The notes under the pieces: generated by a model
What the model was told of the DNA's origin: nothing
Database searches by the model: none
The model's input: the letters and a program-made list of their open reading frames with translations, nothing else
From: a virus
IMG/VR virus record: IMGVR_UViG_3300036979_000078
Location: 1-34,288 of that record
Reading direction: 5' to 3' (one strand)
DNA length: 34,288 nt
Made by a program: the position numbers and the translations under genes
Shown: positions 19,160 through 34,288 of the stretch, piece after piece
How the letters are laid out: every line of letters begins with the position of its first letter
Numbering within the stretch: the stretch's first letter is position 1

Positions 19160-19189
19160 CAAACATACAACCTTATTTTGATTATGCAA
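19160..19189 (-). promoter_or_regulatory. Early promoter of cassette 2
   Basis: TATGTTTG (19160-19167) with GTATTGCATAATCAAAA upstream; TTG at 19187-19189, spacing 19 nt. Followed by leader bases CCATACCAAAAC and ACAATTCA shared with cassette 1. Confidence 0.85.
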
Positions 19190-26708: not shown

Positions 26709-27377
26709 TTAAGGAGTTGCGAGCTTCATCACCCCGAAGCCGATCAATATGCCTGCCCCGATTTTGGCAGCAGTGGTTTGATGCCACTTTTTATCTTGCC
26801 TCACCACTACGTTACGCATACCAGTTAGATTGATATTGGGATTGTCCACGCCAATACGAACTACGGGATCTGTTCTTTTTAGGATCTTTGAAATAAAGCC
26901 ATCTCGCAGCGTATCTCCGATTGCAACGGTATAAGATGCAGGAATGATTAAAGAATCGATCTGAATGAAGCCTAAGCGGTTAATTCGCCCTCCTATCTCT
27001 AACCACCTATCGATCTTGTGGAACGTGCGAGGTAGTTTGATATGCGGAAAACTATCGACATAGACCACTTCACCCACCTTGAACTCAGTCTTATAGATGG
27101 TTCTTGTTTCAATCTTCACCGCCTGATCCACCTTAGCCATCTCTAACTGTTCCTTGACCTGATCAAGTTCACGCTCTGATGCGTTGATCTGCAAGGCTTG
27201 GGTGTAGATGATAAGCGAATCATCAGTTTTGCGCTTAATGAAGATCTGATTCGTTTCAAAGGCATCAGCATTGAGGCTCTTTAATTCTCGGTTGTAACTG
27301 CAAGACCTAAGCAATAAAAAAAGCAACAGCCCGATGATAGTTAGCATTACTGCTGTCGATGGCTTTACGTTATCCAT
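26709..27377 (-). CDS. Membrane-anchored coiled-coil protein, DUF6549/spanin-like (222 aa)
   Basis: N-terminal transmembrane helix (residues ~8-24), a coiled coil (~30-90: KSLNADAFETNQ, ERELDQVKEQLEMAKV), a beta-rich domain (~95-190) ending NPNINLTGMRNVVV, and a second hydrophobic C-terminal segment (AAKIGAGILIGFGVMKL). From memory this matches the DUF6549-type proteins of Bacteroidota phages. A coiled coil between two membrane segments in a lysis region suggests a spanin-like role; this is inference. Start at 27377 (ATGGATAA overlaps the upstream stop). Confidence 0.65.
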   Translation of the reverse strand: MDNVKPSTAVMLTIIGLLLFLLLRSCSYNRELKSLNADAFETNQIFIKRKTDDSLIIYTQALQINASERELDQVKEQLEMAKVDQAVKIETRTIYKTEFKVGEVVYVDSFPHIKLPRTFHKIDRWLEIGGRINRLGFIQIDSLIIPASYTVAIGDTLRDGFISKILKRTDPVVRIGVDNPNINLTGMRNVVVRQDKKWHQTTAAKIGAGILIGFGVMKLATP

Positions 27378-27567
27378 AGTTGACAAGTTGAATGAGTTTG
27401 TTGATGTGAATAAGCATACAGCCTTGATCCCTGATGTTATCATTCAAGATATTAATCGCCACATTAAAGGGCATACCTTTCTCGATCACATAAGAAGCAA
27501 CAACAGCAATCAGCCTCTCATCGCATTCTCGGTCAGTCTTAGGCAAGTCAATCAATGATTCAATCAT
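27370..27567 (-). CDS. Hypothetical protein (65 aa)
   Basis: Not recognised. Helical, with ECDERLIAVVASYVIEKGMP and a C-terminal INKLIQLVNYG; no transmembrane helix. ATG 10 nt after the stop of the PAS-HisKA gene; the longer frame upstream overprints that gene. Downstream it overlaps the membrane-anchored gene by 8 nt, so the three genes are probably co-expressed. Confidence 0.55.
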   Translation of the reverse strand: MIESLIDLPKTDRECDERLIAVVASYVIEKGMPFNVAINILNDNIRDQGCMLIHINKLIQLVNYG

Positions 27568-27577
27568 AATCGAATTG

Positions 27578-28144
27578 TTATAGCTGTCGAGTTGCTTTCT
27601 TGACAAGCAATTTAATTGATTCATCCAATCGCTGCACACTGTCAGCAATCATATTCATAATCTCCTGCTTCTCTCTATCTGTTGCCTCCTTATGCTCCAT
27701 CATCATGCTCACCAAGCCACCAATGGAAGTCAATGGCTGTCTAAGTTCGTGCGATAGAATAAAGCGGAACTCTTCCAAAAGCATCTTCTGTCGTTCGTAG
27801 TCGTGGGCAGTGATGCTCGTAACATCAACTAAAGGTATGCCTATAAAATGCAAAGAACCCAATATAGAATAAACATTCCACATTGAGTACCTCTCAGATC
27901 CGATCTTCTGTTTGGATCGCACATACACCCGTAAAGCATCGGGCGATTTAGTCTTAGCCTTTTCAATGATTGTCAAGAACTCATCCCGATCACTATCATT
28001 GGAGGCAATGTCGAGAATGTTACTTGGCTTTAGATGGCTGCAATATTCCCTGAATAAATCATTCGATGTGAGTATTAACCCCTGCTCATCAGATATAACG
28101 TAGAATAAATCTATTGAAGATTCAAGAATGTGCAGAGATGCCAT
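27578..28144 (-). CDS. PAS + HisKA protein without ATPase domain (188 aa)
   Basis: Residues ~1-112 look like a PAS sensor domain (LFYVISDEQGLILTSND, IGIPLVDVTSI). Residues ~118-185 are a histidine-kinase dimerisation domain with the H-box RFILSHELRQPLTSIGGLV (phospho-acceptor H132) and a second helix ending VQRLDESIKLLVKK. The gene then stops: there is no HATPase domain (no N, G1, G2 boxes) and none in neighbouring frames. So it could form dimers with host kinases, accept or drain phosphate, or act as a decoy. It lies in the lysis region, one gene past the holin-like genes. Confidence 0.82.
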   Translation of the reverse strand: MASLHILESSIDLFYVISDEQGLILTSNDLFREYCSHLKPSNILDIASNDSDRDEFLTIIEKAKTKSPDALRVYVRSKQKIGSERYSMWNVYSILGSLHFIGIPLVDVTSITAHDYERQKMLLEEFRFILSHELRQPLTSIGGLVSMMMEHKEATDREKQEIMNMIADSVQRLDESIKLLVKKATRQL

Positions 28145-28171
28145 GCTGTAAAGTTACAACATAACGATTTA

Positions 28172-28576
28172 TCAAGCCATCTCCTTGCGAATATTATCTA
28201 TCAATGACCTCCAAGCACCTTGACTTGAAACAAGATATTGAACGGTGATAGCCATCGTAAAGGCAAGCACGATTCCGTTGATCGGTATATCTAAATTCAT
28301 AGGCATTGGCTCATTCTTTTGATTCGTTCTTACATCGACAAAGGTCAACGGCTCTGCTTTAACTGAGGTGATCAATGATATGTTACAAGGTTGTATAGAA
28401 TCAAATGCAGTTAACTCAGGTTTGTCAACTACTGACTTGTCAATCTTTGGCACTTCAACAACAGCAACAACCTCAACAGCCGAATCAACAACTGATCCAG
28501 CAGTTACCGAAGTATCGAAACTTATTGTTCTGTGCGTTACCTTATACACCGTATCTCTAACCGTTTGCTGATTCAT
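28172..28576 (-). CDS. Protein with C-terminal transmembrane helix (134 aa)
   Basis: Thr/Val/Ser-rich soluble part (TSVTAGSVVDSAVEVVAVVE) followed by one transmembrane helix (IVLAFTMAITVQYLV, residues ~102-117) and a short basic tail. It overlaps the holin candidate by 20 nt. A lysis role (holin partner or spanin component) is suggested by position only. Topology with one C-terminal TM does not fit a normal i-spanin. Confidence 0.6.
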   Translation of the reverse strand: MNQQTVRDTVYKVTHRTISFDTSVTAGSVVDSAVEVVAVVEVPKIDKSVVDKPELTAFDSIQPCNISLITSVKAEPLTFVDVRTNQKNEPMPMNLDIPINGIVLAFTMAITVQYLVSSQGAWRSLIDNIRKEMA

Positions 28577-28766
28577 CGCTCTTAGCTTTAGGTATGTAGC
28601 CTGCTGCGATCAGTGCTGCCACAATCGCTGCCATCGTTTCCGTAGTTATGACCTTGAAGATTAATAAGTAAATCGATACTAAGATCATCAGCGAGCCAAT
28701 GGTTGAACGCCAGTGCTTAATGATGATATTGAATATCTTTTTAGACTTATTAACTCTTGCTGCCAT
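28557..28766 (-). CDS. Holin candidate (69 aa)
   Basis: Two transmembrane helices (IGSLMILVSIYLLIFKVI, ~22-40; TMAAIVAALIAAGYI, ~44-58), a basic N-terminus (NKSKK) and a polar C-terminus with KAKSDES. This is class II holin topology. It directly follows the lysozyme gene, which has no signal or anchor of its own and so needs a pore. The gap upstream (28767-28812) has a weak TATCTTTA box only. Confidence 0.7.
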   Translation of the reverse strand: MAARVNKSKKIFNIIIKHWRSTIGSLMILVSIYLLIFKVITTETMAAIVAALIAAGYIPKAKSDESANG

Positions 28767-28812: not shown

Positions 28813-29271
28813 TTAATCTTTACACGCCTTGAAGTATAACTTAGCCTCGTCTGCCCGTCTTGTGGTTAGCCCTGCCAATGGCTTTCCTGCTGCCTTATTC
28901 CACCGCATAAACTCATCGAGGATGCTTGGATCATTGGCGTTCACCTTTGCCTTACGTATCAATGTCGATTTAGAAAGTGCTGAAGATCCTATGTTGTAAC
29001 ACAAACTTACAAGAGCATCGAATTGGCACTGGTTGATATTGGGCAGAAGATTGTTGACCGTCTTTTCAAATGCTGCAAGGGTTAATAATAGCAGCGATGT
29101 TGCAACCGATTCATCCTTTAGCTTATCTTTCATCTCAACCCTCTTGCCGTTTGGATAGCGAGTTGATCCGTAGCCGATTGTTGCCACTCCAGCAGGGCAA
29201 AGATAGGCAGTCAATCGAAGCCCCTCGTACTTCTTAATCAATGCCAACCCTGCTGCTGATGTGGAGCGCAT
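28813..29271 (-). CDS. Endolysin, T4-type lysozyme (GH24) (152 aa)
   Basis: Muramidase that cleaves MurNAc-GlcNAc bonds. The catalytic triad has E-8aa-C-5aa-T spacing: E16 in KKYEGLRLTAY, C25 in LCPAG (Cys replaces the T4 Asp, as in a known GH24 subgroup) and T31 in GVATIGYGST. FDALVSLCYNIG and RWNKAAGKPLAGLTTRRADE are the conserved C-lobe motifs. Length is standard. There is no N-terminal membrane anchor, so export depends on a holin. Start directly follows the upstream stop (TAAATG). Confidence 0.93.
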   Translation of the reverse strand: MRSTSAAGLALIKKYEGLRLTAYLCPAGVATIGYGSTRYPNGKRVEMKDKLKDESVATSLLLLTLAAFEKTVNNLLPNINQCQFDALVSLCYNIGSSALSKSTLIRKAKVNANDPSILDEFMRWNKAAGKPLAGLTTRRADEAKLYFKACKD

Positions 29272-33192: not shown

Positions 33193-34238
33193 TACGGTAG
33201 TGCTGTTACATACTTCATATTCCTGCGACAATCCCAACAGTGTGAATCGTCAGGCATCCTCATATTCTGAAGCATCGCTCCTAACTCTTCATTGTATCTT
33301 GTCGCTGCTATATCACGAGCAGCCACAATCCCCTCAACTGCATCGGCAGTGGCAAAAGGTTTCTGCCCTCTGTTAACTGTTACGGTAGTGTTTACTCTTT
33401 GGTTAGGTGATGCAGTTAGAGCATAGTTGTAAATCTCGACTGCCGTTGCATAAGCCAAAGGCAAAGCCATCAGCCCACCGATTGAACAGAGCCATCCTTG
33501 TCGATCACAGTTAACATTGTAGTTGATGCTCATCCCTGCGGTGTACTTGCTTGTAATGGATGATAGCACATCAGTTCCGTTGGTAGTCAAGTCGATGCCG
33601 ATTGCATCCACAAACGGGCAGATGTGCGCCTCTCTAACTCCACCACCACAATCGAAGCAATGACCTTTTTTAGTTACCATCTTCGCTGAATCAAATGTCG
33701 ATTCGTAAACGATGGCGATGTCAAGTTTCCGCCTTGCACTGGCGAATGTCTTACCAAGAAACTGATCAAGCCCTCCCGTTGCATAGGTAAAAGTTTCAAT
33801 CAACTTCAGTGTTGACATATCGAAGATCAGGATCGGCACGTTCACATTCGCAGCATCCACCGCCAAGTTAATATCGGCTAAGTAGAAGTTAAGGAATGAC
33901 AATGACTGCGGATCGATCTTTAATCGGATGCCCGTATATCGCCCTGCTCCTGCTGCGGTTTGCACATTGGAATAGTTACTCACCAACTGACCAACTCTTT
34001 TGCCCTCAATGACGGTGTCTGCTTTCATTACGGGAGCAAGTCGAGTCAATACATCAGAAGATAATTTGCGCCACGCAAACGCTCTCTTAGCTGTGAACAA
34101 CTCGCTGCCTTGCAGATATTGATCGGTAATTAATTGACCTAAGAATGTGGTGTTGATTCCAAGATCATCGATATAAAGCCCCGTTGATGGTTCAACCTGA
34201 TTGCAATCTCTTAATCCAAGTAACGATTCAATGCACAT
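33192..34238 (-). CDS. Cys-rich virion protein, possible head-tail adaptor (348 aa)
   Basis: Begins MCIESLLGLRDCNQVEPSTG, then LYIDDLGI, a start common in Bacteroidota phage virion genes located next to the capsid gene (from memory). Cys pairs CFDCGGG...HICPF (~192-206) and CWDC (~336-339) suggest zinc or disulfides. Position between capsid and completion protein suits an adaptor or neck protein. It has its own TATCTTTG promoter (34257-34264). The first 77 bases also appear at the start of the window because of the terminal overlap. Confidence 0.7.
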   Translation of the reverse strand: MCIESLLGLRDCNQVEPSTGLYIDDLGINTTFLGQLITDQYLQGSELFTAKRAFAWRKLSSDVLTRLAPVMKADTVIEGKRVGQLVSNYSNVQTAAGAGRYTGIRLKIDPQSLSFLNFYLADINLAVDAANVNVPILIFDMSTLKLIETFTYATGGLDQFLGKTFASARRKLDIAIVYESTFDSAKMVTKKGHCFDCGGGVREAHICPFVDAIGIDLTTNGTDVLSSITSKYTAGMSINYNVNCDRQGWLCSIGGLMALPLAYATAVEIYNYALTASPNQRVNTTVTVNRGQKPFATADAVEGIVAARDIAATRYNEELGAMLQNMRMPDDSHCWDCRRNMKYVTALP

Positions 34239-34288
34239 CTGATGGTTATTTTTTTACAAAGATAAAAAAAGGGAGGCATAAAGCCCCC
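34162..34288. repeat. Terminal overlap, right copy
   Basis: Exact copy of bases 1-127. It contains the 5' end of the gene starting at 34238, the TATCTTTG promoter at 34257-34264, and the beginning of the hairpin terminator that is complete only at the left end (103-130). The gene at 33192-34238 and the major capsid gene are therefore neighbours on the circle. Confidence 0.93.

Follow-up and report, generated by a model that had tools for sequence, protein, structure and literature searches.

The virus record IMGVR_UViG_3300036979_000078 (the window, analysed at its full length of 34,288 nucleotides) encodes what appears to be new: a conserved phospho-acceptor protein without an ATPase domain. 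Its gene is a constant part of the lysis module in a widespread clade of uncultivated phages, whose hosts are probably Bacteroidota. The protein, here called PAS-DHp, joins a PAS-like sensor domain to a DHp hairpin bearing an acceptor histidine (H132), and the variation in its coding sequence indicates an old gene under purifying selection. The reading to which we incline, tentatively and with somewhat less than even confidence, is that PAS-DHp takes part in a host two-component pathway as a phosphoryl acceptor. No description of a phage PAS-HisKA protein was found in the open-access literature. The features of the locus are collected in Table 1.

Table 1. Features of the PAS-DHp locus and the surrounding lysis module (positions in the window)
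Feature	Position	Strand	Details
Endolysin	28813..29271	-	Phage_lysozyme PF00959, E 1.6e-36
Holin-like protein	28557..28766	-	69 aa; phrog_565 holin at E 0.059 only; hydrophobicity and synteny
Tail-anchored protein	28172..28576	-	134 aa; C-terminal transmembrane segment; no family match
Candidate promoter -7 box	28149..28156	-	TAACTTTA; at -12 from the PAS-DHp ATG
PAS-DHp protein	27578..28144	-	188 aa, ATG start; HisKA without HATPase_c
PAS-like sensor domain	27809..28114	-	Residues 11-112; AlphaFold2 and Foldseek; not recognised by Pfam
DHp hairpin	27584..27808	-	Residues 113-187; Pfam HisKA and AlphaFold2 model
H-box SHELRQPLTS	27725..27754	-	Residues 131-140, invariant; H132 codon 27749-27751
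Three-helix protein	27370..27567	-	65 aa; always directly downstream of PAS-DHp
Spanin-like protein	26709..27377 (listed ORF starts 27443)	-	222 aa; no family match

A preliminary description had taken the open reading frame for a PAS-HisKA protein with a phospho-acceptor histidine and no kinase domain, and this observation is confirmed by Pfam, by the predicted fold and by a genome-wide domain search. Pfam HisKA (PF00512) spans residues 130-177 (E 6e-9, 36.3 bits against a cut-off of 26.9) and is matched in all 18 members of the phage family that were compared. In the AlphaFold2 monomer model, which is of moderate confidence (mean pLDDT 75), a PAS-like alpha/beta domain at about residues 14-104 precedes the two-helix hairpin of the DHp (residues 113-150 and 156-187), so that H132, in its SHELRQPL box, and both DHp helices are intact, as had been claimed. 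The best PDB matches found by Foldseek are LOV/PAS-histidine kinases and PAS domains (probability 1.00, best E 4e-6); the whole-length superpositions have a high rmsd and support the domain order, not the exact geometry. By sequence, the closest solved chain is the sensor kinase 3a0r_A (E 1.7e-6), aligned over both PAS and DHp. Pfam PAS gives a weak match in one of the 18 family members, and the PAS assignment is based on the fold, in which the modelled domain lies N-terminal to the DHp. No membrane segment is obvious in the protein.

A PAS domain ahead of a HisKA domain with the HExxxP box is also the arrangement in HisKA sensor kinases (PF00512 + PF02518), such as the Thermotoga protein 3a0r_A. 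Unlike these, PAS-DHp lacks the ATPase domain and is thus no kinase on its own. HATPase_c (PF02518) has no match at E<=1 in the whole phage genome, whereas the same search gave matches in 14 of 14 control genomes; the absence that had been noted for the vicinity of the gene extends to the entire genome, which also rules out an ATPase domain split off onto another open reading frame. With no HATPase_c in the protein or in the genome, PAS-DHp does not qualify as a sensor histidine kinase. The two ends of the record share a direct repeat of 127 bp (1-127 = 34162-34288), and the genome of about 34.2 kb is therefore probably complete, either circular or circularly closed, or permuted, which means that the missing domain is not an artefact of a contig edge. 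No receiver domain over the cut-off was found in the phage genome, which points to a host protein as the partner. The sole receiver candidate, a sub-threshold antisense match of 15.9 bits, was taken as chance.

IMG/VR was searched with separate baits, namely the PAS-DHp protein, the neighbouring lysozyme and a profile. These searches yielded 80 distinct phage proteins found independently of the H-box, and SHELRQPLTS, including H132, is present in 80/80. A scan for the H-box DNA pattern returned, among the loci examined, solely members of the phage PAS-DHp family; its matches were kept out of the conservation count because the scan itself selects for the H-box. With them, the family comprises at least 119 distinct homologues of 185-189 aa, all of which stop just past DHp helix 2 and none of which has a kinase domain. 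The preliminary description had staked its reading on a conserved H132 and on the lack of phage homologues with a complete kinase, and on both counts it held. The first 83 coding sequences all specify proteins of exactly 188 aa, and their mean dN/dS is about 0.085, falling to about 0.05 around the H-box; all ten H-box codons vary synonymously and none changes its amino acid. DHp helix 2 varies across the family, whereas the H-box does not. Recent decay from a complete histidine kinase would agree with the end of the protein, which lies where HATPase_c would begin, but the near-constant length of the homologues, the purifying selection and the lack of any full-length phage relative refute this explanation, which keeps next to no credence.

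Within the group of relatives that share the lysozyme, the PAS-DHp gene was found in every one whose contig covers the locus. The isolated-phage collection gave no credible relatives, only five records at E 0.3-0.9, four of them from Listeria. The earlier remark that histidine kinase parts are rare in small phage genomes thus stands for isolated phages, among which the protein was unseen, but not for its own uncultivated clade, in which it is common. A scan of 84,980 species genomes revealed no close homologue and no prophage copy, only distant kinases and kinase-like proteins.

The residues around H132 bear on what the protein may do. According to a published alanine scan of the HisKA domain of the kinase CrdS (PMC3510030), autophosphorylation is lost when H, H+1 (E) or H+2 (I) is replaced by alanine and is weakened by changes at H+3 (basic), H+5 (P), H+6 (L) and H+9 (I). 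The phage family has equivalents at all of these positions (H, E+1, L+2, R+3, P+5, L+6 and I/V+9). The H+4 residue of CrdS, N375, is needed for phosphatase activity, and the N375Q protein was devoid of phosphatase activity and lost about 40% of kinase activity (PMC3510030). This position is Q in all phage family members, so that the T or N of the HisKA phosphatase motif (E/DxxT/N) is absent. Because the residues for autophosphorylation are kept and H+4 is Q, the pattern speaks for a protein that accepts phosphoryl groups in concert with host proteins, be it in a mixed dimer, as a sink or in a relay, rather than for a phosphatase. Two qualifications apply. In the HisKA_3 kinases, another DHp subfamily, it is Gln that catalyses the phosphatase reaction, and by this analogy Q at H+4 is not strictly at odds with phosphatase activity; selection, for its part, may preserve the autophosphorylation residues for something else, for instance docking of a receiver or packing of the helices.

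In the mechanism that we propose, PAS-DHp would be a cytosolic, probably dimeric protein made from the phage lysis module. It is unable to burn ATP itself, and H132 would be phosphorylated within a mixed dimer by the ATPase domain that a host histidine kinase contributes or, alternatively, by back-transfer from a host receiver domain. The phosphoryl groups would then be drained or passed on to a receiver domain, and the PAS domain, perhaps together with the 65-aa partner, would set when the protein is active. That the protein dimerises and is phosphorylated on H132 is inferred, and the same holds for the host, the host partner, the direction in which phosphate moves and any consequence for lysis. 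The mixed dimers or phosphate draining envisaged in the preliminary description are consistent with the residue pattern, and its interpretation is supported in part, as regards a PAS-DHp acceptor without a kinase that is kept by selection. A selected, apparently phosphorylatable DHp in a small phage genome without ATPase or receiver domains implies a specific host signalling partner. If this were confirmed, the phage would tap or drain host two-component signalling directly, using a piece of the pathway itself.

Several known systems resemble parts of this proposal. Dimeric histidine phosphotransferases of the Spo0B/ChpT type have a DHp-like dimer that relays phosphate and does not autophosphorylate, and ChpT resembles a histidine kinase. 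These proteins keep a degenerate ATPase-like domain; PAS-DHp, in contrast, has no ATPase-like domain of any kind and carries a PAS domain. RetS is a hybrid kinase and a membrane protein that, unlike the phage protein, keeps its ATPase-domain region and receivers. Its likeness to PAS-DHp lies in the proposed mode, a mixed DHp dimer that blocks and siphons phosphate: RetS binds GacS, blocks GacS autophosphorylation and siphons phosphate from it (PMC12189002). Another phage protein aimed at host histidine kinases, PIT4 of phage LSL4, binds several of them (PMC10714779), although it does so in trans and is not described as a kinase-derived DHp protein. By analogy, RetS-GacS and PIT4 show precedent for the mode and the motive of a phage phosphoryl acceptor.

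The representatives that were read share one gene order: lysozyme, holin-like protein (67-69 aa), tail-anchored protein (about 130-145 aa), PAS-DHp, small helical protein (52-69 aa) and spanin-like protein (214-244 aa). The position between holin-like and spanin-like genes, as first described, stands, but PAS-DHp is adjacent to neither, since the tail-anchored and the small helical open reading frames intervene. The order is kept even where PAS-DHp is only 56% identical (the divergent lineage of L255), bar one inserted gene. In this lineage (L255, L257, L283 and L298), a gene for a 258-aa secreted-looking protein lies between the lysozyme and holin-like genes. The spanin-like protein is hydrophobic at both ends, with a conserved Cys after the N-terminal hydrophobic segment, which makes it a candidate one-piece spanin. 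The start of the small gene overlaps the PAS-DHp stop codon (ATGA) in 72 of 119 loci. Its 65-aa product, predicted to form three helices (pLDDT 85) with no significant PDB structural match (best E 0.98), is a possible partner of PAS-DHp.

Of 78 distinct regions upstream of PAS-DHp, 75 contain the sequence TAnnTTTG, which has the form of the Bacteroidota -7 element, exactly 12 nt ahead of the start codon. The lysozyme, holin-like and tail-anchored genes are not preceded by it, and in the divergent L255 lineage it is missing from the PAS-DHp -12 position. As a -7 box alone, with no -33 element established, it suggests a separate, nearly leaderless transcript from PAS-DHp. A scan of the region for sigma-70 promoters and terminators gave results at about chance level. 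The box, together with a distant match of the terminase to Flavobacterium phage 11b, leads us to infer a Bacteroidota host. In some lineages the 65-aa gene, too, has a box similar to TAnnTTTG in front of it. Elsewhere in the window, sites resembling TTGCAnAATCAA and then TAnnTTTG occur on the minus strand at 19189, 26625, 2693 and 18868, and may represent an early promoter motif of the phage.

The position of the PAS-DHp gene, conserved across divergent lineages, makes a role in lysis timing possible, and through it a connection between the physiology of the host and lysis time could be put to the test. The fuller version, in which H132 taps host two-component phosphate flow and thereby times holin or spanin action, perhaps via the 65-aa partner, seems to us quite unlikely. 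Less likely again is that the DHp serves only as a four-helix dimer, with PAS-DHp and the 65-aa protein acting on the holin or spanin as a scaffold or timer and playing no part in host signalling. The fixed position between holin-like and spanin-like genes, also in the divergent lineages, and the 65-aa gene that always follows would agree with such a role; a mere dimer, however, needs no invariant phospho-acceptor box, the protein shows no obvious membrane segment, and the conserved TAnnTTTG box suggests that PAS-DHp has its own transcript. It is unlikely, although less so than these, that PAS-DHp is a dominant negative in the manner of RetS, blocking a host kinase in mixed dimers while itself staying unphosphorylated. 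The DHp is a dimerisation domain, RetS-GacS provides a precedent, and PIT4 is an example of a phage protein that binds several host kinases of this type. Pure blocking, however, requires neither the invariant histidine nor the acidic H+1, and helix 2, which is also part of the dimer bundle, varies while the H-box is constant. Rather unlikely, too, is a stand-alone DHp phosphatase that acts on a host response regulator and shuts down a host response during infection. Phosphatase activity has been described for the isolated DHp domains of EnvZ and NtrB (cited in PMC3510030), and the phage protein has exactly that truncated architecture. Against this stand the Q at H+4 of all family members, the very substitution that abolished the CrdS phosphatase, and the H+1 position, where an acidic residue matters for CrdS kinase activity and whose invariance a pure phosphatase leaves unexplained.

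The phosphoryl acceptor that we favour also has to be set against a cellular counterpart. The best match in species genomes is a 389-aa PAS-PAS-HisKA protein of Filimonas zeae (L193) that stops right past the DHp. The comparison exposes a large and apparently undescribed class of cellular ATPase-less DHp proteins in Bacteroidota (L210-L239, L193-L208), of which no description was found in the open-access literature. At least one such protein occurs in 56 of 395 genomes at E<=1e-12, with up to 11 copies. Like the phage protein, they consist of PAS and DHp, stop directly past DHp helix 2 and lack the ATPase domain. They are, however, mostly 330 to more than 1000 aa long, with a LREIAWxQSH signature and often with receivers, whereas the phage protein is minimal, at 188 aa. 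The phage family always has E at H+1 and Q at H+4; in the cellular class, acidic H+1 is not conserved (11 of 32 proteins), and T or N at H+4 never occurs in these 32.

PAS-DHp might be a functional member of this class, forming a DHp-receiver relay with host single-domain receivers as a mimic or competitor, which we consider about as improbable as the phosphatase. The class exists, and a profile-profile comparison matches the phage family to it at 98.9%. In a tree of only 72 alignment columns, the phage clade lies beside it (98/93), and the AU test does not reject a clade joining the two (p-AU 0.45). On the other hand, the LREIAWxQSH signature is absent from the phage family, and the phage DHp scores a mean of 63.8 bits on the profile of ATPase-bearing host proteins against 56.6 on the ATPase-less one, with 8 of 68 preferring the latter; the class itself has no known function. 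The phage family thus shares the architecture of the class, but the sequence tests of membership disagree, and filing it as a plain member was dropped because the profile scores conflict with the tree. Among the 32 distinct cellular proteins inspected, all end 0-23 aa past the DHp profile, and 18 carry a receiver domain or lie next to one, REC, REC-PAS-DHp, REC being a frequent arrangement.
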